Source of the DNA: Platanthera guangdongensis
Lineage: Eukaryota; Streptophyta; Magnoliopsida; Asparagales; Orchidaceae
NCBI GenBank assembly: GCA_039583875.1
Contig: CM077151.1
Span: 109,820,609 to 109,884,608 of the forward strand
Length of the DNA stretch: 64,000 nt
Reading direction: 5' to 3'
Shown: piece by piece, positions 9,719 through 61,744 of the stretch
Layout: every line of letters starts with the position of its first letter
How positions within the stretch are numbered: position 1 is the first letter of the stretch
Translations under genes and position numbers: made by a program
The notes under the pieces: generated by a model
Seen by the model: the letters and a program-made list of their open reading frames with translations, nothing else
Databases searched by the model: none
What the model was told of the DNA's origin: nothing

Positions 9719-10452
9719 CGAGAAAATGTTTTGAGTTATCTTACCTAAATCACCTAGAGGGGGTGAATAGGTGAGTTGTGCGTCTTTTTGCGGAATAAAA
9801 AATTTAACGATCTATGCACAAAAAATCAACCAAGAAATCATAGATGACACCAAGAATTATAGTGGTTCCCCAACTTTGGGTACATCCAATTTCCACTCAC
9901 CGATCTAGCAATGCACTAGACTCGGCTACTCCACTAATCTCGGATTGAAAACAATCCTACACCTCGGAACAACGTTCTTACAAGTCAATCCCAAAAATTG
10001 GATCTACACTCGGAAGATAAAACTTCCTACAAGAACTCAGAGAATACAACTCCTACAACTCAGAGAAAGATCTCCAACAAGAATATAATGAAATAACAAA
10101 TACAAACAGTGATTTGATCTCAGATTTGAAATGCTTCTGCCTGTTCTTCTTTCTTTGAACTTTGCGGCTTTATCAGAAATTGTTGAAGAATAATTGGCAA
10201 TATCTCTAGATCTGAAATTCTCTAGACTCACACGATCAAGTAGAAAATATATCGTTTGAAAAGAATCTTGATCTGTGAATCAACTTCTCTGAATCGATCT
10301 GGATCGAAAGCGCTTTGGCGATGAAGATGATGATTGGAACCTCTCGATTTAGAAAAAAATGTCGGATTCAGAATTCTTTGAATTACTTCTTGCGACGGCT
10401 TGTAATTCTTCTTATTTTCTTCTTCTTAGGGTTGGTCGAAAATGACAGGACC

Positions 10453-10459
10453 TTATATA
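10453..10459 (-). promoter_or_regulatory. TATA box of C2 3' LTR
   Basis: TATATAA on the minus strand, about 120 bp downstream of the array end. The same box lies at 20934-20940 in the 5' LTR. Confidence 0.65.
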
Positions 10460-10574
10460 GGACTTGCCTAACGGTCATAATCATCATTAATGACATCCAC
10501 GTGTACCAATCATGTGCTAATGGTATTTGAAATACACGTATGTCTGGACTTAAAAGTTTTCAGAAAAATAGTGC

Positions 10575-11080
10575 GGGTGTTCTCGAGAAGACATATAGTA
10601 CTCGAGAAAAAACATACTGATTCTCGAGAATTACAAAGAGGATCTCGAGAAAAATACTTAGAAAAATATGTGGAGGTAGAAATCAGCTGTCTCGAGAATG
10701 ACAGAAGTACTCGAGAAAAATGTCGTTTTGTTCTCGAGAAGAATCATTCTATTACTCAAGTACAAATACTCATCCCGAGAATAAATGTCTGGCTCTCGAG
10801 AAAAATACTCTGGCTCTCGAGAAATATCTTCTACATCTCGAGAATAAATCATAGTCTTCTCAAAAATAATTTTATTCTCCTCGAGAAAAAGACTTAGAAA
10901 AATATTGACTGGAAAAGAAACAACCCGAGAAGAAATGTCATATAGTACTTGAGAACAAATGCCCTTCTCGAGAACAACAAGAGGCTTTCTCGAGAACAAC
11001 TTCTGCCACTCGAAATTAAGACAAGTCTTACTCGAGAAATTTCTTAAGTCCTTCTCGAGTACAGATACAGTACTCGAGAA
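10575..11080. repeat. C2 LTR palindrome array (TTCTCGAGAA)
   Basis: CTCGAG cores at 10582, 10601, 10623, 10644, 10691, 10710, 10733, 10795, 10816 and 10837, with decayed cores such as CTCAAG at 10756. Most steps are 19-23 bp. More cores continue to about 11078. The array lies in U3, upstream of the TATA box on the minus strand. Confidence 0.88.
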
Positions 11081-11406
11081 AAAGACTTGGACTTTTTCTG
11101 AAAAATTAAAAAACTTAATTCTTCATTAAAATCAGCATCCCTCGTTTCTCTTGCCCTTAGTGCTTGAAAAGGAAGTGTATCCCAATAGAGAGGCTACACA
11201 CGAGTCAACATCATGGATCACATAATGAGGGATTACATTGTATGATCCTATATTTGGAGACTCATTGTAGACTGACATTGGTTTACACTTAGCAATTAAA
11301 TCCTGCAAACACTTAACTAAAAAGAGCATCAAATACAAACTTAATTCATCTTAGTTTAAGGGTGACTTCATACAAATCTGGGCTATTGTGGATGCAATAC
11401 CCAACA

Positions 11407-11420
11407 ATCTCCCCCTATTT
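11407..11420 (-). other. C2 polypurine tract
   Basis: Minus strand AAATAGGGGGAGAT directly before TGTTGGG of the 3' LTR. The identical tract occurs in C4 at 56738-56751, and near copies in C3 and R. Confidence 0.88.
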
Positions 11421-11590: not shown

Positions 11591-14120
11591 TCAAAAATGA
11601 ACTTTCATCATCTTCAATTTACTAATCCTGTTGATGTTGCTTTCCTTGTCTCTCTTGCTTCTCTTGTTGTATCTTTTGATAACTGTATGGCTTGGGGAAA
11701 TACTTAGGTGGTCTAGGTGGAGCATTGGGATTGTTTCTGCCATATTCCCTGTCATAAATTCTTCTCTTGGTAAGGGACTTTTCATAAAACTCTCATCCCT
11801 GAGGGCTATAGTGAAGGTTCCTGTCTTCATTAAAATCAACTACTAGCTTTTGAGTTTCAAGAATAAGAGACTTGGAAGTAGGGCTCCAAACTTTAGTACA
11901 CTCTTGAAGTTTTTTCCCTTGAGCTTCTGGATGTGGAGTTGATCTACTTGCTGAGGCTCCATCACCATACTTCCTTCTCTTGGCTTTCTGAATTTCTGGA
12001 GGATGAGGAGGCATACCTGTTTGTTCAGATTCCCAAACTTGTTCATACACATCAGGAGGAGGTCCTTCATAGTAATCTGGAGGAGGTCCTTCAACATATT
12101 CTGGAGTAGGAGAGAATGTAGGCTTATTTTCATTTAGGTTTGCAGCAGGAGGTGCATTAGGATCCATGGCAAATTCAGGAAATAACTGATTGTGCATCCA
12201 TATGGAAGTATCATAAGTATATAACTTAGTACTCTTGACTTCTTTGAGGACACAGGTCTGAATTTCTTTTAACTAATCTTCCCACTGATTTTTCATTGAC
12301 AGAGCTTGTTTTTCTAGAAGTTCTTTCACTTTATCCTCCCACTTTCTTACTTCTATGGAGAGGGTGCTGATGACATCTTCTTTAAATTTTCCAACTTCTT
12401 CACAAGTTTTAAAGATTATGAGCAAGTGTAACAGATTGCTCCATAACAGTACCTATGCTTGTAATTGTGTGATCAATAACTTTTCCACCAATTTGTAGAA
12501 GCCTTTTAAATTCATCTGTATTGTTTTGGATTTCAGCAAATCCTCGGCTCATTTCCTTTTCTAATGCATTACTTTTTCAGTTACAACCTTCAGAGAATCA
12601 TCAAAGTATTTTCTTTGATCTGCAAGCATAGTTTCAATTTCGTGTAAAATGGTACCTTCATGGAAGATTTCTTTCTAAGTAGATGGAGGAGGCTGAGCAG
12701 GGACAGTCCATGGAAGAATTTCTTCAATAATAACTGTAGAAGTAGAGGCTAACTTTTTGTTTACAGTGTTGGGTTCTTCTTCAGTATCTGAGGGCAGCAA
12801 AGAGGGAATGTTGAAGTGAAGACTGGGGAGTCTTTGCTCAGCATATTCTACTGGAACTTCATCATCTGAATCATGAATTGAAACAATTTCATCATCATGT
12901 ATATCTGTAGGAGATTTTTCAGCTTCATGTATAGGAGATTTATCAGCTGGAGGAGATGATTCTGGATTTTTTGGAGACTGTGCCTGTTTTGGGGATTTTT
13001 CTCGTTGAGGAGGAGGAGACCTTGTTGGAGATTTGGGGGAAGTTGTTGTAGATGGACGATGATCTTCAGGGATAGAGAAAGGAGGTTCTTTAGAAGAAAG
13101 CTCCTCTATCATCTTATTGATGTCATCTTCAGTAGACAGAATCTGAGCTTGAGTCTGGGCATCTGTCAGATTATCAGAATCTAGAAAGTCTTCAGCAGCA
13201 GGAAATTATTTGTCTTTATGCAGCAAAGAGGAAGAAGCAGCAGCAAAGGTAGATGGAATTTCTTCTAAAACAGCAGCTGAAATTTCTGAAGCAGCAACTG
13301 GAATAGCTTGAGTAGAAATAGCTGAAGCAGATGGTGCAGGCTCCCCCTCAATAACTAAATCAGTTATTTGATGTGAAGGAGGAGATGGGGTCCTGTCAAC
13401 AGCTTCTATTTCCTTGGCAGCTTTGTCTGACTTCTGTAATTTGACTGCCCATCTCTAGATGGAGGTAATGGAAACCTTTTTCATGTGGTGGAGGGCTATG
13501 CCATTTTTCATTGGAAAAGCTTCTGGATTCATCTGATTTAGATAAATAGAAATTATTCTTCCATAGTTGGGGCTCCTAATGCATGCCTTGATTTTCTCAA
13601 AAAACATCATTCCCAACTGGAATTTCTTTCTACAAATCACTGATGTTATTAAATCAAAAAATTCCGGAGTAATGTAGCTGATTAAACTAGTTTTGCAGAG
13701 AAGCACTTTGCCTAGGATGTCAGCCAATAACTTGCTTTCAGCATTCATAAATTGCCTTCTGATTATGTGATAGGATTGAGGAATACCACAGAAACTATAG
13801 GCTCTCTCATAATCAATGCCTTCCAGATCATCTTCCATATCTATTATTGGCAGTTGCAGAAGTTGAGAAACAGAAAGGGCATATATCTTTACCTTGATAT
13901 TCTGAACCTTATACTTGAGTACCTTCCTATTCCTTTTAACTTTGGCGTGCTGGAAAAATTCTTCAACCTCAGAAGTTATAATTCAACATGGATGTTCAAG
14001 AACAAAGGAGAACCCAGCTGTATCTAGCAGAAGGAGGACATTCTTGAAATTATCTGATATCTCTGCAATCCTGGTAGAATTGAGTTTACTCCCAATCCCT
14101 ATCTTTGAAGACGAAGCCAT
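11591..14120 (-). pseudogene. C2 ORF3 (third ORF of SIRE-type element), broken
   Basis: ATG at 14120-14118 (MASSSKIGIG) matches the ORF3 start of C3 (MAPSSKIGIG). The frame is broken by stops into pieces at 13838-13455, 13112-12675, 12197-11793 and 11839-11591. The conserved N-terminal domain includes DILGKVLLCKTS and PNYGRIISI. A Pro/Ser-rich acidic middle (KSPTRSPPPQ) follows, then a basic KRRKYGDGASASRS motif and a C-terminal tail. No signal peptide or transmembrane stretch is visible. The protein has no enzymatic motif I recognise. Such ORFs are often called envelope-like, but the sequence gives no support for that here. The N-terminal domain has a faint look of plant transposon-associated domains of unknown function. 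Confidence 0.75.
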
Positions 14121-14261
14121 GAATGTCAAGAAATCGATCTGACTGGCTGACGAAAGGGAAAACTGGCTTGCAGCAGACGACAGAGATAGAGGAAGACGAA
14201 ACAGCTTTTCTCGAGAAGAAGGGTTTTGAAATCGGGAATAAAAATTCCTTGGACTGATTTC

Positions 14262-14269
14262 TATTTATA
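14262..14269 (-). promoter_or_regulatory. Putative internal TATA box of C2 ORF3
   Basis: TATAAATA on the minus strand, 142 bp upstream of the ORF3 ATG and just downstream of the internal palindrome array. C3 has TATATAAA at the same distance (42165-42172). Confidence 0.55.
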
Positions 14270-14389
14270 TTTACCTCTAATTTTGATGATTAAACATATA
14301 AATAATCATTAAAAATACCTGGAATGAGGCGGCTAAGTTCCTGTGTGCCGATATGAAAATTTTGGACTTGAAGAAAAATTGCGCACCAG

Positions 14390-14592
14390 ATTTCTCGAGA
14401 GGACAGATTGTTCTCGTGAAGAATTTGATCAGCACTCGAGTATAATAATCCTTGGTCTCGAGTAGAATGAGCCTTGTTCTCGAGTAGAGATTTCCTGTTC
14501 TCGAGTAGAATACTTCTTCTCAAGAAATAATTTCTTTGTACTCGAGGAATAATTTTGTTGTTCTCGAGTACAAGTGATGTACTCGAGAAATG
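14390..14592. repeat. C2 internal palindrome array before ORF3
   Basis: Ten positions at 14394, 14413 (CTCGTG), 14435, 14457, 14479, 14500, 14519 (CTCAAG), 14541, 14563 and 14582 carry CTCGAG or a one-base variant. Steps are 19, 22, 22, 22, 21, 19, 22, 22 and 19 bp. It lies between the end of pol and ORF3. Flanks mix the C2 LTR type (CTCGAGAA) with CTCGAGTAG. Confidence 0.88.
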
Positions 14593-14826: not shown

Positions 14827-16353
14827 TCACAGCTCTATGTGCTTTGTCCGGCTGTGAGAGACTAGATTGTTAGCTATTGTAATTGCACTGGAGGAGTTGC
14901 AAAATAAAGGGATGTCTTGGACTTTTAGATTGTAATCTTCTAGTTGGTTCTTTATCCACAACAATTCTGCACAACAACGACCAGTAGAAATATATTCTGA
15001 CTCGGCCATTGAAATTACGACACAATTCTGTTTTTTGCAGCTCCAAGAAACGAGCCTCCTTCCAAGGAATTTGAAAGTCCCGTAAGTGCTCTTTCTATCA
15101 TCTTTACTTTCTGCAAAGTCTGCATCTGAAAAACCAATTAGTTTGCTGTTATTACTTCTTGGGTAGCATAAGCTAAGATTTGGTGTACCTTTAAGGTATC
15201 TCAAAATCCGTTTTGCAGCAGCGTAGTGAGATTCCTTAGAGTTCACTTGAAGTCTAGCACACACACATGTTGAAAATATTATATCCGGTCTACTAGCAGT
15301 AAGGTAAAGCAAAGATACAATTATGCTTCTGTACTTGGTTTCATCGAAAGGTTTCCCTTTCTCATCCTTATCCATAGACATAGTTGAATCCATTAGAGTC
15401 CTCATAGAGGTTGCGTTCTCCATTTCAAATTTCTTAATCAACTCTGTGGTGAATTTCATCTGAGAGATGAAAATTCCATCTTCAGATTGTTTCACCTGAA
15501 GTCCTAAGAAATACTTCAGCTCTCCCATACAGCTCATTTTGAACTTCCCTTGCATAAGTTTGGAAAACTTTTTGCAAAGGTTGTCGTCAATAGAGCCGAA
15601 AATGATGTCATCGACATAGATTTGCACTAGCAAAATCTTGCCTTTTATTTCCCTAAGAAATAATATTTTATCTATCTTTCCTCTTGTGAACTTGTTCTCA
15701 AGAAGAAAGTTAGATAGCGTCTCGTACCAAGCTCGAGGAGCTTTTTTAAAACCATATAATGCTTTAAATAAAAGATAGACATGATCAGAAAAGTTAGAGT
15801 CAACGAAACCTGGAGATTGTTCCACATACACTTCTTCCTTTATGTCCCCATTAAGGAAGACAGACTTCACGTCCATCTGATAGACGGTGAAGCCCTTAAG
15901 TGCAATATATGCTAGGAACAACCTAATTGCCTCCAGCCTTGCCACTGGAGCATAAGTCTGTTCGAAGTCGATTCCTTCTTCTTGTTGGTATCCTTTGGTG
16001 AAGAGTTTGGCCTTGTTCTTTATTATTGTCCCATCCTCTCCCATCTTGTTCCTGTAGACCCATTTTAACTCGATGACGTTCTTACCTTTGGGTCTTGGAA
16101 CAAGCTTCCAGACTTGGCAATGCTTGAACTGATTCAATTCTTCCTCCATTGCCATTATCCATGATGCGTCTAAGTTTGCTTCCTCATACTTCATCGGTTC
16201 AACCTGTGATAGAAAACTCAAATATAAATTCTCATTAGATGTACCTCTACGAGTTCTGACACCATCCCGGGAATCTCCTATGATTTGGTCCATTGGGTGA
16301 TCCTTCAAGCTTCTGAGCTCTAAGGTCCTTTCATCTGTAGCTTCTTCAACCAT
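14827..16353 (-). pseudogene. C2 reverse transcriptase and RNase H
   Basis: A 508-codon open stretch covers the end of the integrase-RT linker, the copia RT and most of RNase H. RT signatures include [19 protein letters not shown] and the active site YVDDIIFGS (two catalytic Asp kept). RNase H shows [16 protein letters not shown] and SRTKHIEL. Pol is split from the integrase part by frameshifts, and the last RNase H residues continue past a stop toward about 14680. RT copies element RNA into DNA in cytoplasmic particles; RNase H removes the RNA strand. About 85% identical to C3 RT by hand count. Confidence 0.88.
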
Positions 16354-20230: not shown

Positions 20231-20933
20231 ATTGAAAATGTTTTAATTTGTCTTACCTAAATCACCTAGAGGAGGGTGAATAGGTGAGTTGTGCGTCTTT
20301 TTGCGGAATAAAAAATTTAACGATCTATGCACAGAAAATCAACCAAGCAATTACAGACGACACCAAGAATTATAGTAGTTCCCTAACCTTGGGTGCATCC
20401 ACTTTCCACTCACCGATCTAGCAATGCACTAGACTCGACTACTCCACTAATCTCGGATTGAAAACAATCCTACACCTCGGAACAACGTTCCTACAACTCG
20501 ATCCCAAAAACTTGATCTACACTCGGAAGATAAAACTTCCTACAAGAACTCGGAGAATACAACTCCTACAACTCGGAGAAAGATCTACAGTGATTTGATC
20601 TCAGATCTGAAATGCTTCTGCCTATTCTTCTTCTTTGAACTTTGCGGCTTTATCAGAAATTGTTGAAGAAGAATCAGCAATATCTCTGGATCTGAAATTC
20701 TCTGCACTCACACGATCAAGTAGAAAAATCTGTCGTTTGTAAAGAATCTAGATCTGTGAATCAACTTCTCTGAATCGATCTGGATCGAAAGCGCTTTGAC
20801 GATGAAGATGATGATCAGCGGCTCTCGATTTAGAAAGAAATGTCGGATTCCGAATTCTTAGAATTACTTCTTACGGTGGCTTGTAATTCTTCTTATTTTC
20901 TTCTTCTTAGGGTTGGTCGAAAATGACAAGACC

Positions 20934-20940
20934 TTATATA
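20934..20940 (-). promoter_or_regulatory. TATA box of C2 5' LTR
   Basis: TATATAA on the minus strand, conserved with 10453-10459. It would drive the full-length C2 transcript. Confidence 0.65.
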
Positions 20941-21059
20941 GGACTTGCCTAACGGTCATAATCATCATTAATGACATCCACTTGGACCAATCACGCGCTA
21001 ATGATATTTGAAATACACGTCTGTCTGGACTTAAAAGTTTTCAAAAAAACAGTGCGGGT

Positions 21060-21555
21060 GTTCTTGAGAAGACGTATAGTACTCGAGAAAAAACATACTG
21101 GTTCTCGAGAAGAGCTAAGAGGATCTTGAGAAAAACACTTAGAAAATTATGTGGAGGTGGAAATCAGCAGTCTCGAGAGTGACAGAAGTACTCGGGAAAA
21201 ATGATGTTTTGTTCTCGAGAAGAATCATTATGTTACTCGAGAACAAATAATCATCCCGAGAATAAATGTCTGGCTCTCGAGAAAAATAATCTGGGTTTGG
21301 AGAAATATCTTCTGCATCTCGAGAACAAATCATAGTCTTCTCGAGAAAAATGTTATTCTTCTCAAGAAAAAGATAGAAAAATATTGACTGGAAAAGAAAC
21401 AACCCAAGAAGAAATGTCAAATAGTACTAGAGAACAAAAGCCCTTCTCGAGAACAACAAGAGGCTTTCTCGAGAACAACTTCTGCGACTCGAAATTAAGA
21501 CAAGTCTTACTCAAGAAATTTCTTAAGTCCTTCTCGAGTACAAATATAGTACTCG
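21060..21555. repeat. C2 5' LTR palindrome array
   Basis: The TTCTCGAGAA array, matching 10575-11080 in order and spacing. Many units show CTCAAG, CTTGAG or CCCGAG, as expected from CpG decay or copy-specific mutation. Confidence 0.85.
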
Positions 21556-22033
21556 ATAAAAAAAATTAGACTTCTTCTGAAAAACTGAAAATCTTAATTC
21601 TTCATTAAAATCAGCATCCATCTTTTCTCTTGCCCTTACTGCTTGAAAAGGAAGTGTGTCCCAATAGAGAGGCTACACATGAGTCAACACCATGGATCAC
21701 ACAATGAGGGATTACATTGTATGGTCCTGTGTTTGGAGACTAATTGTAGTCTGACATTGGTCTACACTTAGTAATTAAGTCTTGCAAACATTTAACTAAA
21801 AAGAGCATCAAATACAAACTTAATTCATCTTAGTTTAAGGGTGACTTCATACAAATCTGGGCTATTGTGGATGCAATACCCAACAACACATGAAGAGAGT
21901 GAGGGTCACAATCACCTCTTCAACCACAAACACTAGCCTTTGCTAGAGTGATTCTAGTGCGTGATTGAGTGGATGTGAATGGAGGCGAGTGCATCATAAT
22001 TAACAAAAGAGGATGTAATTAACCAAAACATAC

Positions 22034-30104: not shown

Positions 30105-30734
30105 CTTCTTCTTCCCCCGCTCGATACCTAAGAGCCGCCTCGGTGAGAGGATGAGATATCCAGTTAGTCTTTATGACTAATGGTTGCTACAACTGCTATT
30201 TTAGGAGGACATCCAGCGGATGGAGCCACATCAGTAGCAGGTTTTGTAGGAGGGCAGCCAGTCTAGGGTGATATGGCGTGATACGACGTTACCTTCACTG
30301 TTGTCAGTAACAGATGTGAGTTTTTGGAGAGACTCATATTGTAGCCCTTTGGGCAATTTTTGTGTACTCTGATATTATAGAAGCTGTTGTTGCTTTTTAT
30401 TATTGTTGTACTTATATGCTTGTGTGGATTTTGACTTCTATATATTCTTTTTGTTAGGTTGGTATGGATGATATTGTTTTAGCTGACAGGATAGGCGTCT
30501 TGTGGTAGAGGTTAGCCCGTGTGCTGACGCTATTGCAAGACAGCTGTTCTGGTCATAAGACTCCCCTCGGCCATGTTTTGTGTTCCGGGAGGGGAGTCTT
30601 ACAAATGTTATCAGACTTGCAACGATCCTAAACTAAAGAAGTCATGAAACAATTATGCCACCCGCATTCGATTGGTCAGTTTGCTGACAAACTGAAATAG
30701 TAGAAGCAGTGGTGTGCCCATGTGTAATTCACAT

Positions 30735-32256
30735 TGTTGGATATTGTATCCACAATAACCTAGATTTGTGTGAAGTCACCCTTGAACTAAGATGAATTAA
30801 GTATGTATTTGGTGCTATTTTCTAGTTGAGTGCTTGCAGGTTATTATTGCTAAGTGTATACTAATATCAGTTTACAATGAGTCACTTAACATAGGACCAT
30901 GCAATGTAATCCCTCATTGTGTGATCTATGGTGTTGACTTATGTGTAATCTCTCTATTCGGATGCACTTCATCTTCAAGTACTAAAGCATGGAATAAGGA
31001 AGGGTTGCTGGTCTTTGAACAAGAAAAAAATTTACTCTAAAATTTTGCTAAGTCTATTATTCGACAAGAACATTGTTTTCGAAAGGTCTAGACAAATTTT
31101 TCGAGAAAGAACAACTGTTCTCGAGAAACATAAGGACTTTTCGAAAAACTCTCATAAGATTCTAAGATATCTTTTTCGAGAAATGTTCTGTAGAATTCGT
31201 GAGAAAGCCGAGTTCATTTTTCGGGAAAGAAATGTTGCTTTCAAAAAATCAAATTCATTTTTGGAGAAAGAAAAGTTGTTTTCGAAAAGTCAAATTCATC
31301 TTTCGAAAAATCAGTTCCTCTGTTCAGAGAATTCTGCATGAAGCATTTTCTCGAGAAGGGTATACCATTTTTCGAGAAATCAAGTTCTTTTCTAAAAATC
31401 AAGATGCCTTTCGAAGAAGGCAATTGCAGGAAATTCAAATTTCATAATTCGTCGAACGGGATTTCAAATATTAATCTGTGTTTAATATTATTGAATATCA
31501 TTCCTTAAATGATTTCAGACAGTTAGTGAATATCCTACATAAAGTCATCTCAAGGATTCACTAGCCCTAACAGTACAAGTAAGAATTCGAAAAAATCAGA
31601 ATCACCGCAAGTTGTAGATCGGGAACAAAAGCCACTCGCCGCCATTGTTGTTCTTCTCTGTCGCTTCTTCCTCGATCCAGCAATTCAACAGAAGAAAATA
31701 TTCGACTGATCATAGATTCAAGTTCCTCAATCATTCGTTTGATTGTGTCGGATCCTACGAGTTTCAGATCGTGTTCTCTCAAGATTTCTTCCTCAACATC
31801 TTTCTTTAAGAATTTCAGATTTCAAGAGGGAAGAACTTTGAAGATCTCAGATCTGGAAGTACAAATTTCATTGTAGTTGTAAAATTTATTTCAACTCTTG
31901 TAGGAGCTTTGTCTCCGAGTTTGTAGGAAAATTATTCTTCCGAGTGTAGATCCTGTTTTGGTGGGTCGAGTATGTAGGGGTGTATTTACTCCGAGTTGTA
32001 GGAGCATTGCTTCGAGGTGTAGGATTGTTTTAATCCGAGATTTAGTGAAGTCGCCAAGGCTAGACATGTGCTAGATTGGTGAGGTGGAGAGTGGACGTAC
32101 CCAAGATTGGGGAGCCACTATAATTCCTTATCTCGTCTGTCTTGTGCTTGATTACTTTCTGTGTTATACTCTCTCAAATTTTTATTTCGCAAAAGACGCA
32201 GATCTCACCTATTCACCCCCCTTTAGGTGATTTAGGCATACAACTAGATACTTTCA
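30735..32256 (+). repeat. C6 5' LTR (1522 bp)
   Basis: TGTTGG start and CTTTCA end, followed by the primer site. A palindrome array is at 31060-31435. The GAGTTGTAGGAG-like steps near 31900-32050 are shared with the other SIRE-type LTRs. Confidence 0.85.
31060..31435. repeat. C6 LTR palindrome array (TTTCGAGAAA / TTTTCGAAAA)
   Basis: TCGA cores at 31061, 31079, 31101, 31121, 31141 and 31176, and more degenerate ones to 31435. Steps are 18-22 bp with gaps. The flanks differ from C2 (TTCTCGAGAA) though the LTR frame is shared. Confidence 0.75.
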
Positions 32257-32258
32257 TT

Positions 32259-37582: not shown

Positions 37583-38285
37583 TGAAAGTGTTCAGTTGTC
37601 TACCTAAATCACCTAGAGGGGGTGAATAGGTGAGTTGTGCGTCTTTTTGCGGAATAAAAATTTAGAGATCTATGCACACAAAAATCTACCAAACATTCAC
37701 AGACGACAAGAGATTTATAGTGGCTCCCCAACCTTGGGTACATCCACTTTCTCTCACCGATCTAGCAAAGCACTAGACTCGGCTACTCCACTATCTCGGA
37801 TTGAAAATCAATCATATGCCTCAGAACAAAGTTCCTACAATCTCGATCCACAACAAGGATCTACACTCGAAAGATAAAAATTTCCTACAACTCGGAGACA
37901 AAAGCTCCTACACTCGGAGAGAAGTCTCCTACAAGAATAAATTGAGAATAATGAAATACAAATAGTAATTTCTCAGATCTGGAATCTGTCGGCCTAGGTC
38001 TTCTTCGTTGATCTTTGCGGCTTTGTCAGAAAATGTTGAAGAAGAGGCTCGGCAAGATCTGAATTTTGAATTTCTTTGACTCACACGATCTAAGAGATGA
38101 TGAGGAGTTGAAGAGCAATCTCGATATGTAAGTCAACCTTGATCTGAATCTTCTTAAGTCGAAAACCATAGCCGATTTGCACGATGAGGAGGGCGGCGAC
38201 TTCCATTTTTAGAAAGAGAAAATAGGATTCAGAAAACTTAGAATAATTCTTGACAGCTTGTTAGGGTTAGTCGTTTTGAAAGACC

Positions 38286-38292
38286 TTATATA
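38286..38292 (-). promoter_or_regulatory. TATA box of C3 LTR
   Basis: TATATAA on the minus strand, downstream of the palindrome array, equivalent to the C2 box. Confidence 0.65.
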
Positions 38293-38409
38293 AGATCTCC
38301 CTAACGGTCATAATTAGCATTAATGACATACACGTGGACCAATCACGTCACGACATTTGAAAGTCCCATCGATTATGGACTTAGCGAATTTCTGGAAAAT
38401 CTGACTGAA

Positions 38410-39115
38410 ATACTTGAGTGAAATATAAGCTACTCGAGTACTAATATGATTACTCGAGAGGATAGAAACAGACTACTCGAGTAGAAGTCCTTGAGAAAAT
38501 TCAGAATAGGATGAGCAATCACTCGAGTAGAAAAAGACTTACTCGAGTGATAATATGATTACTCGTGACGTGGAGATGAACTACTCGAGTACTAGAAATA
38601 TTACTCGAGAAAAAGACTTAGCAGATTTTCTTGGAGAAGAAATCTAGTTACTCGAGTACAGGAGCTAGACTACTCGAGAAGAGATAGACTACTCGAGAAG
38701 TAGATTAACTACTCTAGTATAGGACTAGGAAAAATTATGAAAGATAAAAAATCTGATCACTCGAACAGTAGTGCTGGACTACTCAAGTAGTAGAAAGACT
38801 ACTCGAGTACATGAACTGAACTACTCGAGTGGGGTAAAACAACACGAGAATCTTCCTTCTGTAACTCGAGACAAAAGACTTATCTACTCGAGTGGTTAAC
38901 TTGACTACTCAAGTAAAAGACTTGGAATAAATTTTGAGAGGAAAAACTGTTAACTCGAGAATAAGAGAAAGTTTACTCGAGTAATGAACTTGGCCACTCG
39001 AGAGCTATATTCAGACTACTCGAGAGCCATTTCCCTTACTCGAGTACAGATAGACTTACTCGAGTATTTACCAAGTATTCAACTCGAGTACTTAAACTTC
39101 TACTCGTGTGAAAGA
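38410..39115. repeat. C3 LTR palindrome array (CTACTCGAGTAG)
   Basis: CTCGAG cores at 38433, 38453, 38476, 38522, 38542, 38584, 38604, 38651, 38673 and 38692, with one-base variants at 38562 and 38712. Single steps are 19-23 bp and gaps are doubles (46-47). About 30 units in all to 39115. Flanks TA..TA replace the TT..AA of C2. Confidence 0.9.
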
Positions 39116-39439
39116 CTTATAAAAATTTTCCTTCAAGAGAATTTTCTTTTCTTCAATAAAGTCAGCAACACTTCTTTCTCCAATCAATCCTAGTGCTTGA
39201 AACATGAAGTGTATCCTAATAGAGAGGCTACACATGAGTCAACACCATGGATCACACAATGAGGGATTACATTGTATGGTCCTGTGTTTGGTGACCCATT
39301 GTAGACTGACATTGGTCTACACTTGGCAAATTAGTCCTGCAGACACATAACTCAAGCAAGACATCAAATACAACTTAATTCATCTTAGTTCAAGGGTGAA
39401 TTCACCAAATCTGGGTTATTATGGATACAATACCCAACA

Positions 39440-39452
39440 GTCTCCCCTATTT
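39440..39452 (-). other. C3 polypurine tract
   Basis: Minus strand AAATAGGGGAGAC before TGTTGGG; one G shorter than in C2 and C4. Confidence 0.8.
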
Positions 39453-42164: not shown

Positions 42165-42172
42165 TTTATATA
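42165..42172 (-). promoter_or_regulatory. Putative internal TATA box of C3 ORF3
   Basis: TATATAAA on the minus strand, 142 bp before the ORF3 ATG and downstream of the internal array; position identical to C2. Confidence 0.55.
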
Positions 42173-42289: not shown

Positions 42290-42545
42290 GTACTCGAGAG
42301 GACCAACAGTACTCGAGTGAAATGAAGATAGTACTCGAGTGAGAAAACTGGAAGTACTCGAGTGATAATATGGAAGTACTCGAGTGAAGTCCCTATAGCT
42401 CTCGAGTGGAAACTTAGTACTCGAGTAGGTTGAAGAAGTACTCGAGTAGGTTTACTCGTGTGGCTGAGGAAGTACTCGAGTAGTTCAAAGAGGTACTCGA
42501 GTGACTTACTTCTTACTCGAGTGGTCTTTATCTTACTCGATTCAT
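42290..42545. repeat. C3 internal palindrome array before ORF3
   Basis: CTCGAG cores at 42293, 42312, 42334, 42357, 42379, 42401, 42420, 42441, 42475, 42496 and 42516, with variants at 42455 and 42536. Steps are mostly 19-23 bp. Flanks are of the C3 type (TACTCGAGTG or TACTCGAGTAG). Confidence 0.88.
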
Positions 42546-42620: not shown

Positions 42621-44012
42621 CTAATCTACTTTGTTGAACATTCCAAGTTCTGTTTTGAAGAACGAGAACTTGGTCTCGCTCAGCGGCTTCGTGAAAATGT
42701 CTGCAATCTGCCTATCTGTTGGGACATATTGTAGATCTATGTCCCAATGCTCCACATGCTCCCGGATGAAGTGGTACCGCAGCTCTATATGCTTTGTTCG
42801 GCTGTGAGAGACTGGGCCGTTGGCTATTGAAATTGCGCTGGAAGAGTCGCAAAACAATGGAATGTTCTGAAACTTCATGTTATAGTCTTCAAACTGGTTC
42901 TTTATCCATAACAACTGTGCACAACAACTGCCTGCAGAGATATACTTTGACTCAACAGTTGAGATTACAACACAATTCTACTTCTTACTGCTCTAGGATA
43001 TGAGCCTTCTTCCAAGGAATTGTAAAGTACCAGAAGTTCTCTTCATGTCGTCTTTGCTACCTGCAAAATCTGCATCTGAAAAACCAATTAGCTCGCTATC
43101 ATTACTTCTTGGGTACCATAAGCCAAGATTTGGTGTACCCTTGAGGTATCTCAAAATCCGCTTTGCAACAACGTAGTGAGATTCCTTAGAGTTCACTTGA
43201 AATCTAGCACAGACACATGTTGAGGACATTATGTCTGGTCTACTAGCAGTAAGGTAGTGCAAGGATCCAATTATGCTTCTTTACTTGCTTTCATCAAAAG
43301 ATTTCTCTTTCTCATCCTTGTCTAGAGACACAGTTGAACCCAATTGAGTCATCATAGAGGTTGCGTTCTCCATTCCGAATTTTTTAATTAGCTCTTTGGT
43401 TAACTTAGTCTGCGAGATGAAAATTCCATCTTCAGATTGTTTCACCTGAAGCCCTAAGAAATACTTCCGCTCACCCATACTGCTCATTTCAAACTTTGCT
43501 TGCATAAGTTTAGAAAACTTCTTGCATAGGTTGTCGTCAGTAGAACCAAAAATAATGTTGTCGACATAGATTTGCTCTAGCAAAATCTTGCCTTTTATTT
43601 CCCTAGGAAATAATATCTTATCTATCTTTCCCCTTGTGAACTTGTTCTCAAGAAGAAAGCTAGACAACATCTCATACCAAGCTCGAGGAGCTTGTTTCAA
43701 ACCATATAATGCTTTATGTAATAAATAAACATAATCGGGAAAGTTAGAATCAACGAAACCTGGAGGTTGTTCCACATACACCTCTTCCTTTACATCACCA
43801 TTAAGGAAGGCAGACTTCACGTCCATCTGATATACAGTGAAGCCCTTAAGAGCGGCATATGCTAGGAATAACCTGATTGCCTCCAACCTTGCCACTGGAG
43901 CGTACGTCTGGTCAAAGTCAATTCCTTCTTCTTGATGATATCCTTTAGCAACGTGTCTGGCCTTATTCTTTATGATCGTTCCATCCTCTCCATCTTGTTC
44001 CTGTAGACCCAC
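42621..44012 (-). pseudogene. C3 reverse transcriptase and RNase H
   Basis: RT piece 44012-43281 ([19 protein letters not shown]). The active site reads YVDNIIFGS, so the second catalytic Asp is changed to Asn. RNase H pieces 43262-42993 ([10 protein letters not shown]) and 42914-42621 ([16 protein letters not shown], then the C-terminal end FNKVD). Stops separate them. Collinear with C2. Confidence 0.87.
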
Positions 44013-45100
44013 TTTGTCCTAATGACATTCTTACCTTTGGATCTTGGAACAAGTTTCCATACTTGACAGTGCTTGAACTGATTTAGTTCTTCTTCCATTG
44101 CCATTATCCAAGATGCGTCAGAGTTTGCTTCCTCAAACTTCTTTGGTTCAACCTGTGAGAGAAAACTTAAATATAAATTCTTTTTAGTTGTACCTCTATG
44201 AGTTTTGATACCATCCCGGGGATCTCCTATGATTTGGTCCATGGGGTGATCCTTCAGATGTCTGAGCTCTAGAGTCCTTGCATCTGGAATGTCTTCAATC
44301 ACCAGAGTGACTTCATCAACTTGGACGATTTCTTCATCTGGATCATCTACCTCTCCAATAGGGGTTGGAGTGGTGATCTTGATGAACTTTTCACCTTTAT
44401 CTTCAGTCGGTTCTTCCAAGTTAAGTTCATTCAACTTTGTACATGCATCTTCAATGAATACACTAGAAGAGTTGCCTTGCAGCAAGCTCATCTCATCAAA
44501 TACAACATATATGTATTCTTCTACGACCAGAGTATTTCTATTAAATATCCTATATATCTTACTGTGGCTACTATATCCTACAAAAATACCTTCAAAACTC
44601 TTTTCGCTAAATTTGGTAGTATGATACTTACCATTGTTAAGCACGAAGCATTTACAATGAAAAATTCTAAAATATGAGACAGTCGGTTTCCTGCCCTTTA
44701 GGAGTTCGTAAGGTGTCTTATTGTGATTCTTGTTTATGAGTGCTCGATTTTGCACGTGGCATGCAGTGTTGACAGCTTCAGCCCAGAAGTATTCCGGAAG
44801 TGAAGAATCACTCAACATGGTCTTGTAGGCCTCTATGAGTGTTATATTCCTTCTCTTAGCTACTCCATTCTGTTGAGGAGTTCGAGGAGAGGAAAACTCA
44901 TGAAAGATACCTAGGCTTTCACAGTATTCTGTCATGGCCCCAGAATTGAACTCTGTTCCATTGTCACTTCTGATTTTGACTACGGAACAGTTGTATTCAT
45001 TTTAGGCCTGCCTGATAAAATTTGTAAAGATGTCAATGGTATCTGACTTGTGTTTTAGAAAGAACACTCAAGCAAAGCGCGAGTAATCATAAACAATAAC
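43970..45100 (-). pseudogene. C3 integrase
   Basis: Core and C-terminal region, including RSDNGTEF and QQNGVAKRRN. The third catalytic position, Glu in C2 (VAERRN), is Lys here, a single G-to-A change. A stop near 45067 separates the part that holds HMDLFGP. The C-terminal linker toward RT is complete but frame-shifted at about 43990. Confidence 0.83.
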
Positions 45101-46112
45101 CAACGTATAATCCTTACCTCCCAAACTTCTAACTTGCAGTGGACCGAACAAGTCCATATGAAGCAGATGTAAACATCTATTAGAATCTTTGCCAATAATG
45201 CATTTAAAGGTAGCTCTTGTTTGTTTACCTTTTACGCATACGTGACATGGTCTATCTTTGATGTACTTCACATTTGGGGCATCGCGTACTAAATTCAGTG
45301 AAAATAATTTATTAATAGTTTTGAAATTAATATGTGATAATCTCTTGTGCCATTGGTCACCAAGAGACGCACTATCTTTAGCCATAAAACATACTGGGGT
45401 AGAAGAGTCTATACAAATGAAATTTAAACAAAATATATTTCTGCTTCGAGTGCCTGATATAATCGTTTCCATATTGTCAACCAATTTTATCAAGCACTTA
45501 TCAGCATGAAATTCAACAATATATCCTTTATCGCAAAGTTGACTTATGCTTATGAGATTGTGTTCCAGTCTTTCAACATAAACCATATCTGAGAAGGATA
45601 CTCTACCATTAGAGATCATACCATATCCATTAGTAATTCTCCGGTCTGAATCTCCAAAGATGACCTTTGGCCCGTTCAAAACTGGAGAGTAGTTCTGGAG
45701 AAGGCTTCTTGTCCCGTTCATGTGTCGAGAGAATCCACTGTCCAAATACCAGATAGGCATTTTGGTGACCTTTGGACATACCTGCAATTATAAATCAATT
45801 TGCCTTAGGAACCCAAACACGTTTGGGTCCTTGGTCTCTTGTTAGAACACTCCCCCTACGAGTATTAACATTATGAGTGTCTCTCATATTGCGAATTTGA
45901 GGATTTGCAAAATTTCTGGAATTAAACCAGCAGTCAATGGCAAAGTGACCAATCTTGCCACAACACCAACAGTCAAACCTATTGTATCTTTGCCTTAGAT
46001 TCTCCTGCTTGACCTTTTGAGATGGTGGTATAGCAGGGGCAACATTCTTGGAGGAAGAAGCTTCATGGTGATGGCAATCACATGATTTCTTCTCCTTCAA
46101 TGGCCTTTCCAC
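45068..46112 (-). pseudogene. C3 zinc knuckle, protease and pre-integrase finger
   Basis: 46112-45795 carries the intact knuckle CWCCGKIGHFAIDC. 45787-45068 has the protease motif WYLDSGFSRHM (usual Cys changed to Phe), then the zinc finger WHKRLSH...CHVCVKG and HMDLFGP. The upstream end is cut near 46198 by C4. Confidence 0.83.
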
Positions 46113-46198
46113 AATAGGCTTTACCTTTGGTGCTTTCTTAATATTATGACCATGATTATAAGGGTCATAGCTCTGAAGAGTGATTTCTTCATAAGGTG

Positions 46199-47720
46199 TG
46201 TTGGAACACCCTATTACTAATTTGGGTCAGGATCACTATATCTCTAGGAAACAAATGCTTGACCTCCTGTATAGCTCAATAGGTCAATTAGAATTGAGTC
46301 TAAGGATTAGAAGTCTAGGTTTGGAAGCTGCCCTCAAGACCAGGATTTTCTGTTTGGAGACTAAGTCATATCGTCGAGCTCAGCACGACGATTCGTCGAA
46401 CTCCGATCGACGATCGTCTAGCTTAACTTGGACAGATCGTCGAACTCCATTCGACGATCGCTGAGCTCAACCTCATCATATCGTCGAACTCCATTCGACG
46501 ATCGGTGAGCTCAGGTCGACGATCTTGACTCAGCTTTGGATTTCTATCTCTGAGCTCAGTTCGACGATCTTTGAGCTCAGATCGACGATATTTTGCTGCT
46601 GTATTTATCCATATCGTTGAGCTCAGTTCAACGATAGTAGAGCTCAGTTCGACATTTTCAGATAACTTCAAGGATGTTTCTAGATTCAAATTCAAATCAG
46701 TTAAGGAGTTATTCTGTAATTAATTCTGAAGATTTCCTAGCCGTTTTCATTCATTTCTGGACCAAGTTTCAAGGGATTTTCAAAGAATATTTCTATGGAC
46801 TTTCCTCCAGAAGAGATTTTGCAATTAAGGATGCAATTAATGCAGGCCAACGACTATTCTTCTCAGAGAATGTTTTGTTCAGTATCAGAGAATAAAAGAT
46901 AAGAATTGTTTGAATCTTTGAGACAGATTACAGAGATACACAGACACACAGACAGACATCAGTAATCTTCAACAAAATATTCTGTCTCTAAGAATTCTCA
47001 AGAACACTCATCCAAGGAGATCAACCTTTTCTAAAATCTTCAGATCTCTCTAGTTTTCAAGTGTTCAAGGCCAACATATTTCAAGATTCCAGACACTCAA
47101 CATTTCAGCTGTTGCTGAAATCATTTTTTGCTGGAGCTCAACTTGTGAAGAACTATCACCCTCAGCAAAGCTTCTTTTCCTGAAGATCTCAAGGACTCAG
47201 GGGGAGCTTTGACATCAACAATCCACATAGTCTTCTCAATTGTTTGAGAAAGAGAAGACTGCCATCACTCTCTCACCCCCTCTCTGTAAAGGGTTTCTCA
47301 AACTCCCTTCAAAAGTTTGAGCTTGGTTTTGAGCACCTTGTCAAAAGCTCATTGGTGGCAAGACACCTGATCAAAAAATCTGATTTGGTTTTTGAGCACA
47401 TTATCAAAAGCTCATTGCTGCCCAGGACACCTGATCAACTCATCCTGCAGTGGATTCCTACCTAGGGTGGTAGAAGAGTGGATGTACCCGAGTTTAGGGG
47501 AACCACTATATTTCCTTGTGTCTTCTGGTTTTGCTTGTCTTTATTTTTGTTTCTGGCCTTGATTATTTTATGATTAGCTTTAGATTAGTTTAGTTCTGTG
47601 ATTAGATTAATTATTGCTTCCCTGCTCACTCATATTACAACAATTGTTGTAAAAAGTTTCAAAGCACCATATACTCTATTCACCCCCCTCTAGAGTATAT
47701 CAGATCTAGCTGCACTTTCA
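46199..47720 (+). repeat. C4 first LTR (1522 bp)
   Basis: TGTTGGAACACCC start, CTTTCA end. Very similar to 56752-58295 except for a 21-bp array unit missing here and scattered substitutions. No textbook TATA is obvious after the array; CTGTAAAG near 47286 equals CTATAAAG near 57858 in the other copy. Confidence 0.92.
46372..46652. repeat. C4 LTR palindrome array (ATCGTCGAAC / GTTCGACGAT with GAGCTC)
   Basis: ATCGTCGAACTCC and TTCGACGAT half-sites alternate with GAGCTCAG, about 20-22 bp apart, or 44 bp between like half-sites. The same array lies at 56925-57232. Confidence 0.85.
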
Positions 47721-47722
47721 AT

Positions 47723-47733
47723 TGATATCAAAG
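47723..47733 (+). other. C4 primer-binding site, first copy
   Basis: TGATATCAAAG, one base changed from TGGTATCAAAG at 58298-58308 in the second copy. Confidence 0.8.
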
Positions 47734-47852
47734 TGAGGTTGGTTAAACATACCACACCTTGGTGGTTGCACAGGATAACACCTGAACCCAAAGATCCCAA
47801 GTTAGATCTGTTTTTCTTTTGTAGTTTATTATTAGATTTTTTTTCACAAATC

Positions 47853-49883
47853 ATGGCCCAAAACAAAGATTATGCTAGCACCAGACCTCCAGTGTGCAAT
47901 CTATCCAAGTTTGCACTTTGGAAAGCAAGGATCAGACTGTACATGAATTCTATTGACGAAGACATTTTTAACTCTGTTTTGACAGTGTGTCCAAGACCCC
48001 CAGAGAACTCCAGTACAAATGCTGTTCCACCTCCATCAGGAACAAATGCTGATATCAAGAGATGGAAGGTAGCTGATGCCAAGGCTATGAACATCTTGGC
48101 CCAGACAATGTCTGATGACATATTTCAAAAGGTGGCTGAATGCAATTCAGCAAAGGAAATTTGGGACAAACTCTCAGAAATAGTCTCAGGCTCAGCTGAT
48201 GAGAGAAAGGATAGGAGATCCCACCTCATATCTCAATATGAGAATTTCAAGAAGGGAGAAACTGAGTAAGTGGGAGATATGTACAACAGGCTCAGTCTAA
48301 TTGTCAGTGAACTCAGAACATTGGATAACGAGATCTCACTAACTGAACTAAATGACAAGATTCTAATGTGCTTCCCTAGCACTTGGGATTCAAGAATCTG
48401 GCCAATTAAGGATGCCAGAAGTCTGAATGAGATCACCACTGAAGCTCTATTGGGTAAGCTCAAATCTTATGAGCTACTCATCAAGAATAGAGAAGAAGAA
48501 CAGAAGGCTGCCTCACCAGCCACAAGAAAAGAGAAGACCATAGCCTTCAAGGCAACTGAAGATCAGCCTGAAGACAAAGTCACAGGCAATGATGAACTGC
48601 TCAGTCTGTTGGCCAAAAGATTTTATAAGATGGCCAGAAAAGACTTCAGAAGGAGATCATACAAGGAACATGATAAGCCAAGGTATGACAAGTCCATTAA
48701 TAATAATAATAAAGACATTATTTGCTTTGGTTGCAGGAAACTAGGGCATATAGTTCCTGACTGTCCAGAAAACAAAAACAAGGACAGAAGGGACAGGAAA
48801 GAAAGAAGAAAGGAGAAAGACTCCAAGAGGAGTGGCAATGGCAAACCCTCATCAAGCAAAAACAAACATACAATAAAGGGGTTTGTTGTTGAATCCTGGA
48901 GTGAGACTGAAGAAGAGTCAGAAGCATCATCCAGCTCCAGTGATGATGAGGATGATGCAGAAGAAAAAGAGTTCTGCATGATGGCAATCAATGACTCACA
49001 ACATAATTCAGAAGAAGAGGAGTCAGACTCAGACTCAGAGACTCAACCTGAAGAAGATCTGGTAATCAGCTCTTTTGATTTTAATTCAGAGGACTTCAAA
49101 TCTGAATTTAAAACATTGTGTTTAGACCTGCTAAAGTATGAGAAAGAAATTATCTCTCTCAGAAATCATTTATCTGAACATAATACTTTAAAATCAGAAA
49201 ACCTCAAACTCTCTCAGGAGTTGGAGTGCTGTAAGGAGCAGATAGCTTCACTGAAAAGTGAGCTATCTGAGGCCAAGAAGCTTGAAGAATCCCTTAATGG
49301 GAGAAGCATCAAGCTGATGGACATCACAAGCATAGTGAACTCCAGATTCAATAGTACACTGGGCTTGGGTGCTTCATCTAGCCAACCCATAGTTCTAACA
49401 ACTCCAATCAAATTCATTTCTGATAAAGGAAAGGGAGTTGTAGAGGTTGCTAGGAAAAATTCTGATCTGCCCCAGAAAACTAAGTCCCAGCAGAAATCGT
49501 CGAACGAAGATCGACGATTGCCAAACGGAGATCGACGATCGCCGAACGCAGATCGACAATCTCAGGCAAAATCGTCGAACGCAGGTCGACGATCTCAAGT
49601 ACCTGATCTCAGCCATAGTCGACCGTCGAACGGAGCTCGACGATCTGACCCAAGATCGTCGAACGCAGCTCCAAGATCGTCGAATAGAGGTCAGAGCTCT
49701 GGAAAATTTTTCAAGGGCGAAGCAAAATTCAATCCTAAGGGTCCTTCATCCCAAATCTTTAACACTTATACTGAATGGATTATACCTCCAAGGAGATATC
49801 ATCCTGAAGGATATAAGAGTCAACCTGGGATGTCTTTTATTTCAGAATTTAAAGGTTATCAACCTAGGCCCAAGGTAAACTAG
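47853..49883 (+). pseudogene. C4 Gag with heptapeptide insertion and one internal stop
   Basis: ATG at 47853 (MAQNKDYAST). The frame is open to 49883 except for a TAA at about 48267, where the second copy has a sense codon. Order: Retrotran_gag-type domain (to about residue 280), knuckle CFGCRKLGHIVPDC, Lys/Arg block, acidic Ser-rich block, a coiled coil near 49080-49300, then a region of 7-residue repeats (DRRSPNA-like) at 49495-49690 encoded by the palindrome motif. Gag is unusually long for copia because of these additions. It forms particles and binds RNA. Confidence 0.85.
49495..49690 (+). repeat. Palindrome motif array inside C4 gag coding sequence
   Basis: ATCGTCGAACG/GATCGACGAT half-sites of the C4 LTR type. 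TCGAC starts at 49511, 49532 and 49553, exactly 21 bp apart, so they translate as in-frame heptads. Confidence 0.88.
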
Positions 49884-49899
49884 GTCAAAAATAAATGAA

Positions 49900-50451
49900 T
49901 TGTCTTATGTGCAGGTGAAGACCTATCCAACATCTAACCAGCAATGGTACTTGGATAGTGGATGCTCTAAGCACATGACAGGGAACAAGGACAACCTCAC
50001 TTCCTTTAGAGCCAAGCTTGGACCCAAAGTTATCTTTGGTGATTCAAACTTTGGACAGACTAAAGGATATGGTGCAGTCCAGATTGGATCAGTAACCTTC
50101 AAGAAGGTAGCTTATGTGGAAGGACTGAAGCACAACTTAATAAGAATCAGTCAGCTGTGTGATGAAGGCTACCAGGTGACCTTCAACAAAGACTTATGCA
50201 AAAACAAGTCAGAAGACAACACAACTGTGTTGACAGGTAAAAGGAAAGGTAACATCTATCTAGTAGATTTTCTTTCAACTGATGTAGATATTTTCCTGTT
50301 TAATTCTGTCTGTAGACCAAATATCTTATGGCATAAGAGACTAGGACACCTAAACCTTAGAACTATTGCTAGGCTATCCAAGGACAACCTTGTTAGAGGA
50401 CTACCTTCTGGCCCTACAAGAAGGAAGGACTCTGCAGGGCTTGTCAATTAG
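49900..50451 (+). pseudogene. C4 protease and pre-integrase finger
   Basis: WYLDSGCSKHMTG is the copia protease active site. WHKRLGHLN begins the zinc finger, but the frame breaks near 50440 before its Cys pair. The next frame starts with the integrase core. A stop between Gag and protease (about 49881) may be native or a mutation. Confidence 0.83.
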
Positions 50452-50507
50452 GCAAGTAAACTAAAAACAGCTTTAAGTCACTTAATAAGAGTGATTCACC
50501 TAGGATA

Positions 50508-53062: not shown

Positions 53063-53154
53063 TATCCAAGATTTTGAAAGCTTAAAAATTGACCAAGACT
53101 AGGCAAACATCCTGATTTCTCTTAGTGTCTAGAGCCTTTCTGATCTCTGAACTG

Positions 53155-53415
53155 CACTCGACGATTTTCCCCCAGATCGTCGAACGGAGATCGACGATTT
53201 CCGAAATCGTCGAACTGAGTTCAGCGTTTCTCAGATAGTATGAACTATCTCTTCCGGTCAACGATCGTCGAACGACGCTCGATGATCTTGTTCTCTGAAT
53301 GATTGTCGAACAGAGCTCGACGCTCTCCAATATCGTCGAACGGAGATCGACGATGTTGAAGACTCTTCAGATTCCTTTAGAAGCCTCGATCGTCGAACTG
53401 AGTTCAACGATCTTT
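53155..53415. repeat. C4 internal palindrome array before ORF3
   Basis: GATCGTCGAACGGAGATCGACGAT-type inverted pairs (here split as GATCGTCGAAC and GATCGACGAT) repeat between the pol stop (53062) and the ORF3 TATA. The half-sites are those of the C4 LTR. Confidence 0.85.
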
Positions 53416-53437
53416 CCAATTCTGCGTCGAACCCTAA

Positions 53438-53444
53438 TATAAAA
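53438..53444 (+). promoter_or_regulatory. Putative internal TATA box of C4 ORF3
   Basis: TATAAAA 115 bp before the ORF3 ATG and just after the array, the same layout as in C2 and C3. Confidence 0.5.
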
Positions 53445-53558
53445 TTCATTTTTCGCCGTCGTTCTCCTTTGCGCTTTCGATTTCTCTGCAAGAATTTTCT
53501 TTCCCTCCAAACAGTTCTGCACTTGGTCGTTTTGTTTGTTGAATTTTTGCAGGTACCC

Positions 53559-56582: not shown

Positions 56583-56751
56583 CAATGTAAGGTGACATTC
56601 TCTGTGATTTCTGATTACTATCTGGGATGTTATATATCTCTGTGATTCTGCAATGTCTAGCTTGTTGCTTTTCTGTTTTGTTGCCTGTATGTTGTTAATT
56701 AGATTTTTCCAAAGTCTGTAAATAGTAATCCTAACCCAAATAGGGGGAGAT
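56583..56751 (+). other. C4 3' spacer and polypurine tract
   Basis: About 155 bp after the ORF3 stop, then AAATAGGGGGAGAT (56738-56751) directly before the LTR. The tract is identical to that of C2. Confidence 0.85.
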
Positions 56752-58295: not shown

Positions 58296-58297
58296 AT

Positions 58298-58308
58298 TGG
58301 TATCAAAG
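58298..58308 (+). other. C4 second primer-binding site
   Basis: TGGTATCAAAG directly after an LTR that should be the 3' end of the element; evidence for a tandem second internal region. Confidence 0.85.
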
Positions 58309-58428
58309 CGAGGTTGGTTAAACATACCACACCTTGGTGGTTGCACAGGCTAAAACCTGAACCCAAAGATCCCAAGTTAGATCTCTTTTTCTTTTGTAGT
58401 TTATTATTAGATTTTGTTTTCACAAATC

Positions 58429-61605: not shown

Positions 61606-61744
61606 TGTTGGGTACATTGGAAAATGTGTACCAGATTTGGAGAAGCCTCACTTAGCTCAATGATATTCATCAAGGTGTATTTGATGTTGTTTTGAGTTTA
61701 TATGTGCAGGTTAAGAATATGCAGGAAAAGTTTCTAAGTCCATG

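Follow-up and report, generated by a model that had tools for sequence, protein, structure and literature searches.

In the 64,000-nucleotide window analysed here (Platanthera guangdongensis, contig CM077151.1, positions 109,820,609 to 109,884,608), a retrotransposon designated C2, classified by its sequence as an old member of Ty1/copia, of Sirevirus type, in a host genome of 4.25 Gb, carried an array of regularly spaced palindromes followed by a TATA box in the linker between pol and a third open reading frame (ORF3). Based on the conservation of this arrangement among copies and families, the linker is probably an internal RNA polymerase II promoter that yields a separate ORF3 mRNA.

The array was determined by a core scan with at most one mismatch, and all ten CTCGAG-type sites at 19-22 bp steps described in the original prediction were found on the minus strand. 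The cores started at 14587, 14568, 14546, 14524 (CTTGAG), 14505, 14484, 14462, 14440, 14418 (CACGAG) and 14399, with a spacing of 19, 22, 22, 19, 21, 22, 22, 22 and 19 bp. Exact CTCGAG occurred 9 times in 14120-14592, whereas 1000 dinucleotide shuffles contained it 0.24 times on average and never more than 3 times. The TATA box said to follow the array was confirmed, and its distance was corrected from 142 to 141 bases between the TATAAATA box and the ORF3 ATG (14120-14118), or 149 bp from box to ATG. Transcription is expected to begin some 25-35 bases past the first T of a TATA box, and the start zone and leader listed for C2 in Table 1 were predicted from the box position. An eleventh exact CTCGAG downstream of the box had counterparts in a second element, C3 (42112-42117), and in a further family, F4, as TGTCGACA units after the box.

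The same layout was found in two other elements of the window, C3 and E4 (Table 1). E4 is a plus-strand element whose pol shared 62% identity with C2 pol over 409 residues, and its palindrome word, ATCGTCGA(AC), differed from that of C2 and was present in both its long terminal repeat (LTR) and its linker; two candidate boxes were seen in the E4 LTR. Other families were sampled as the pieces upstream of the first 6 of 64,732 polypurine tract (PPT) places (L048-L053). In two of them, L049 and L050, which represent F4, GTGTCGACAC repeats were followed by GGTATAAATAGG, two more repeats and then an ORF3 unlike that of C2, with 107 bp and 106 bp, respectively, from box to ATG and a presumed leader without ATG. 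No linker was recognised in L048, L051 and L053. The E4 and F4 linkers gave no blast match to the C2-type linker at cut-offs of E 1e-20 and E 1e-8.

Conservation was then evaluated among copies of the C2 family picked by their similarity to the linker stretch. The DNA search gave 44 match rows, from which 39 places besides C2 were taken, and 38 were used after one 99.7% duplicate was dropped; L012 and L015, with the same numbers in both, look like a second duplicate pair and were retained. The mean major-state frequency was highest of seven regions in the box (0.980), followed by the array-to-box interval (0.952), palindrome cores (0.947), pol tail (0.918), spacers (0.910), leader (0.904) and ORF3 start region (0.862). 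CTCGAG was kept at each of the ten array places in 25-31 of the 38 copies and the eleventh was exact in 26, while the TATAAATA box was exact in 32. The ATG was retained in 35 copies, the distance from TATA to ATG was 146-150 bp in 33, and the presumed leader contained no ATG in 36. As regards the duplicates, L020 and L047 lay 53 kb apart on C5 and were 99.7% identical over 6.3 kb, perhaps by segmental duplication, and L012 and L015 on C14 were apparently another such pair.

To avoid selection by similarity to the linker, ORF3 starts were searched in the whole genome by the first bases of ORF3 only (17 bases for the C2 type). The C2-type start ATGGCTTCGTCTTCAAA occurred 79 times, C2 itself and the known duplicate pair included (reversed control 1), and a TATA lay 135-164 bp upstream in 73 of the 79 (79 rows, of which 6 were second hits at a start already counted; reversed control 0). 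TATAAAT was read by eye in all but one row. The F4 start ATGGCGCCTAAGCTAGAGG occurred 1144 times, and the search for a TATA 92-121 bp upstream gave 1179 matches including overlapping ones (reversed control 0). Among the matches listed, a TATA preceded 97/97 F4 starts compared, the first 97 of the 1144, and the full TATAAATA was seen by eye at 88 of these. Three GTGTCGACAC in 18-24 bp steps gave 283,259 genome-wide matches, with overlapping triplets counted (reversed control 0).

The palindrome word of the linker matched that of the LTR in C2, C3 and E4, and the F4 linkers matched an F4-like LTR. In the C2 family the base after the core was A at 0.74 of 334 linker sites and 0.64 of 345 LTR sites (23 LTRs), and in C3 it was T at 0.92 of 12 linker sites and 1.00 of 21 LTR sites. 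When words and regions were tabulated against each other, the E4 word was confined to E4 and E4-like regions and the F4 word to F4 regions, the F4 LTR in this table being the similar one in the window at 61606 and not that of L049 itself; 4 C2-type units also occurred in the C3 LTR, and one C3-type unit in the C2 linker. In L049's own element, among the matches listed, one group of GTGTCGACAC triplets lay about 140-230 bp below the PPT junction and another about 3.4-3.6 kb upstream. The mean step between exact sites (10-33 bp class) was 20.94 bp in linkers (214/286 steps) and 21.09 bp on the LTR side (180/309). Such steps of about 21 bp, about two helix turns, would suit factors binding to the same face of the helix. 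The F4-like LTR of the window, at 61606-63250 (+), carried 16 exact TGTCGACA units and one TATATAAA.

It had been proposed that the linker copies the layout of the LTR. The order of array and then TATA was indeed common to both, but the linker could not be recognised as a copy of the LTR promoter, as no similarity outside the palindromes was found in C2 and C3. In five comparisons over about 280-bp stretches, four with the C2 and C3 3' LTRs and one with the C2 5' LTR, linker and LTR scored like shuffles once the palindromes were set aside, and a duplicated LTR promoter was therefore unsupported. The linkers of C2 and C3 aligned with a score of 68 against a null maximum of 29 in 500 shuffles, with 7/8 box positions identical, and the LTR promoters of these two elements were also related (102 vs 30).

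The linkers were also set apart by their CpG content. The observed/expected (o/e) CpG ratio was 0.94, 1.08 and 1.63 in the linkers of C2, C3 and E4 vs 0.08, 0.16 and 0.03 in ORF3, with intermediate values in gag-pol (C2 0.40, C3 0.46). Over 39 copies the medians were 1.29 (1.02-1.58) for the linker, 0.15 (0.03-1.12) for the first 1500 bases of ORF3 and 0.52 (0.38-0.70) for the pol tail. In E4 (46199-58296, +), CpG was concentrated in four islands, namely both LTR arrays, the linker and a further, third array within gag, and the 300-bp bins elsewhere held 0-2 CpG. E4 ORF3 had 5 CpG in 3024 bp with an open frame, and the LTR-containing repeat of this element, 46199-48900 and 56752-59476, was 96.9% identical. 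The E4 gag frame stayed open across the third array, and the protease part of gag-pol follows shortly after it.

Judged by its substitutions, ORF3 is under purifying selection, with a median omega of 0.24 between the C2 family and C3 in 42 of 45 open segments (three were dropped for a saturated synonymous divergence, dS). The dS of pol between C2 and C3 was 0.42-0.58. All Pfam matches of ORF3 stayed below the cut-off, PF20167 reaching E 0.0013 in L041 and 6.8e-5 in E4. The ORF3 piece of L047 gave no PF20167 match, and a protein search with residues 55-227 of its open piece returned 117 candidates, none reaching E 0.001.

Several points weigh against an internal promoter. At least one TATAWA arose in the array-to-ATG stretch in 12.1% of 2000 shuffles for C2, and in 28.6% and 0.7% of shuffles for C3 and E4, so a single element would prove little; as a chance TATAWA is not rare in one linker, the case rests on conservation across copies and families. 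The copies of one family are not independent of each other, the way the 38 were picked favours the linker over pol and ORF3, and copies ending early lower the ORF3 value; this bias has less influence within the stretch, where box and cores are compared with spacers and leader. The reversed pattern served as the control for the TATA counts, the inclusion of C2 and a duplicate pair enlarges the C2-type set, and six of the 79 starts had no TATA in range (C7:249763068, C10:111588165, C10:162776251, C11:104593803, C12:166751829 and C16:115946353). The E4-like L052 has an array and ORF3, yet no TATAWA in between, the C3 leader contains one out-of-frame ATG just past the assumed start, and the array inside E4 gag occupies a place without a known ORF start. 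The base before the core also agreed more poorly between linker and LTR (A at 0.43 vs 0.08 in the C2 family and 0.92 vs 0.62 in C3). On balance, the claim that ORF3 has its own promoter was partly supported, by conservation: the TATA distance is near-fixed, the presumed leader lacks an ATG in 36 of the 38 copies, the layout recurs in C3, E4 and F4, and the array word is common to the LTR.

From this conserved layout we infer a separate ORF3 RNA, which could arise as follows. A host factor, assumed here, would bind the regularly spaced palindromes, and since linker and LTR of an element carry the same word, a single factor would act at the two promoters alike. The TATA box would set the start of transcription about 30 bp further on, and the short leader, free of ATG, would let ribosomes begin at the ORF3 ATG. 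Two RNAs with the same 3' end would be made, a full-length one from the LTR for gag-pol and a shorter one for ORF3.

The main rival to the internal promoter is splicing, which we consider unlikely. In this case ORF3 would be translated from spliced full-length RNA with a 3' splice site just upstream of the ATG, and the array and TATA would serve otherwise or be relics. Acceptor-like sites, which speak for it, were seen by eye in C2 (CAGTCAG followed by AT, 18 bases before the ATG), C3 (CAACAG followed by AT, 22 bases), E4 (TTTTTGCAG followed by GT, 6 bases) and L052 (CTCTTGCAG followed by GT, 8 bases), and the env-like genes of BAGY-2 and Athila, for which acceptors were predicted, are precedents (as cited in excerpts of PMC2829016). 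However, the CAG is not kept in F4, since L049 reads CCAG and L050 CAAG at this place, and the acceptor AG of the C2 copies (0.95, 0.87) was conserved no better than its surroundings. Splicing would also leave the retained fixed-distance box and the ATG-free leader unexplained. Elements of E4 type, notably L052 without a clear box, may rely on splicing, and the promoter and splicing routes may coexist in different families.

Less probable still, the arrays could serve another purpose, such as attracting or escaping DNA methylation, production of small interfering RNA, control of nucleosomes or integration, or RNA structure, with the TATA incidental. The third E4 array of the same word, within gag where no separate transcript is known, is consistent with this, as are the E4 arrays being the sole CpG-rich parts of a nearly CpG-free body. 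It agrees poorly with the box, whose mean conservation tops the compared regions among copies and which is kept at C2-type and F4 starts, and with the array-then-TATA order that also marks the C2 and C3 LTRs. Readthrough of the pol stop codon, for which SIRE1 is a precedent (as cited in excerpts of PMC2829016), was rejected because in C2 the pol stop lies about 560 bp from the ORF3 ATG and further stops follow it in the pol frame, whereas SIRE1 has a single stop codon between them.

Table 1. Coordinates in the window of the linker, coding and terminal features of C2, C3 and E4
Feature	Position	Strand	Remark
C2 linker palindrome array	14394..14587	-	ten CTCGAG-type sites, 8 exact and 2 with one mismatch
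C2 TATAAATA box	14262..14269	-	candidate TATA of ORF3 promoter
C2 predicted transcription start zone	14234..14244	-	inferred from box position
C2 presumed ORF3 mRNA leader	14121..14233	-	predicted
C2 linker, eleventh exact CTCGAG	14210..14215	-	downstream of box; overlooked in the original prediction
C3 linker array, ACTCGAGT type	42293..42521	-	
C3 TATATAAA box	42165..42172	-	149 bp before ORF3 ATG (42023), equal to C2
E4 linker array, ATCGTCGA(AC) type	53158..53430	+	ten half-sites
E4 TATAAAAT box	53438..53445	+	121 bp before presumed ORF3 ATG (53559)
E4 third array, own palindrome word, inside gag frame	49498..49719	+	28 CpG in the 300-bp bin from 49499
C2 pol, open part with RVT_2	14827..16353	-	E 1.7e-66
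C2 ORF3	11612..14120	-	about 2.5 kb, broken in this copy; sequence reading; open pieces in relatives
C2 PPT octamer AGGGGGAG	11409..11416	-	begins 10 bp before 3' LTR
C2 3' LTR	9721..11406	-	CTCGAG array 10582-11078, CTATATAAG at 10460-10452; exact ends by eye
C2 5' LTR	20233..21885	-	primer binding site (PBS) ATTGGTATCAGAG begins at 20232; ends by eye

The features of C2 and its neighbours were compared with those that characterise Sireviruses, members of Ty1/copia in the Pseudoviridae. The reverse transcriptase of C2 was of copia type by its RVT_2 match, and the PPT octamer AGGGGGAG stood 10 bp before the 3' LTR in C2 and was present at 56742 in E4. The PPT-LTR junction AGGGGGAGATTGTTGG occurred 64,732 times in the 4.25 Gb genome (reversed control 1), and a C-rich stretch was found close to the C2 LTR end. 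By position, ORF3 after pol in C2, C3 and E4 corresponds to the third, ENV-like ORF. Palindromic repeats, comparable to the RM boxes of Sireviruses, stood before the TATA in the LTRs of C2 and C3 and again upstream of ORF3, and E4 had arrays in both places; they clustered in CpG-rich stretches in C2, C3, E4 and the 39 copies, as measured by CpG o/e without a formal island caller. Their cores were CTCGAG, CGTCGA/TCGACG and GTGTCGACAC, and not the CGG-CCG core of RM boxes. The two LTRs of C2 were only 92.1% and 93.8% identical in two blast pieces, which indicates an old insertion. Read by eye, TGTGT/CGTGT at its flanks agree with a target duplication of 5 bp in which one position is mismatched, and its ORF3 frame was read as broken early.

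In C3 the 3' LTR lay at about 37585-39440. The pol genes of C2 and C3 (14694-18249 vs 42644-46198) were 86% identical, and the sequence from the pol end on, linker and ORF3, was far more diverged, as if pol and this part had separate histories. A donor-like CAG/AAG followed by GTAT, between array and box on the minus strand, was common to C2 (14325-14310) and C3 (42225-42210). The E4 3' LTR was followed by a PBS and gag again (56752-59476, +), matching 46199-48900, in a tandem LTR-internal-LTR-internal arrangement. The LTR and start of a further related element were located at about 30733-32257 (+), with repeats mostly of TTTTCGAGAA, TTCTCGAGAA and TTTTCGAAAA.

Palindromic RM boxes of Sireviruses have been described by Bousios et al. 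2010 in LTRs and upstream of ENV, with CpG islands in both places; in excerpts of that paper (PMC2829016) an internal promoter for ENV was considered and not conclusively identified. Among Sirevirus features the same excerpts name the PPT octamer with its position, a conserved junction at the 5' LTR and a polyC-rich signal where the LTR ends, and they give a CGG-CCG core for all published RMs except those of Tnd-1. The internal promoter that the original prediction held to be unusual for LTR retrotransposons was thus less unprecedented than thought, since repeat boxes and CpG islands upstream of ENV are known and such a promoter had already been proposed for Sireviruses (PMC2829016). The hypothesis goes back to Peterson-Burch and Voytas 2002, who detected neither a promoter nor transcription-factor sites upstream of ENV (as cited in excerpts of PMC2829016); the mechanism is the same as proposed here, and the difference lies in the sites. 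Stop-codon suppression and an internal promoter are both named as mechanisms of ENV expression in the MASiVEdb excerpts (PMC3414828), and neither "spliced" nor "subgenomic" occurs in the passages of the ICTV profile (PMC8515867). A literature search by title and start of abstract, with subscription papers mostly outside it, recognised no ORF3 transcript start.

Like the RM boxes in those excerpts, the arrays are high-copy palindromes in the LTR before the TATA and before the ENV-like gene, with one word per element, CpG islands in both places and the PPT AGGGGGAG 10 bp before the LTR. Differently, the words here are CTCGAG, ATCGTCGA(AC) and GTGTCGACAC rather than CGG-CCG, to which Tnd-1 is also an exception, a conserved TATA stands between linker array and ORF3, and E4 has a third array in gag. 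BAGY-2 and Athila (predicted acceptors) and SIRE1 (stop-codon suppression) share the third gene after pol, with other routes of expression according to the passages cited. The arrays in LTR and upstream of ENV and the idea of an internal promoter are already published; the TATA box and its conservation are new.

In a broader reading, which we hold to be evenly balanced, the ORF3-bearing Sireviruses would be two-promoter elements. Their LTR and internal promoters would differ in sequence and be tied by the same family-specific palindrome changing in step, with a CpG-poor ORF3 and CpG-rich promoters; gag-pol and ORF3 would be under one host factor and transcribed separately, and in E4 a third array precedes the protease part of gag-pol.

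The way in which Sireviruses express their third gene has been a question since about 2002 (as cited in excerpts of PMC2829016). With the box before 73/79 and, among the matches listed, 97/97 ORF3 starts, and with a narrow predicted start zone, the internal-promoter idea can be put to a direct test in this genome, which has 64,732 perfect PPT-LTR junctions. If it is true, an LTR element would not be restricted to one RNA, and the palindromes would be shared control elements, more than a peculiarity of the LTR.

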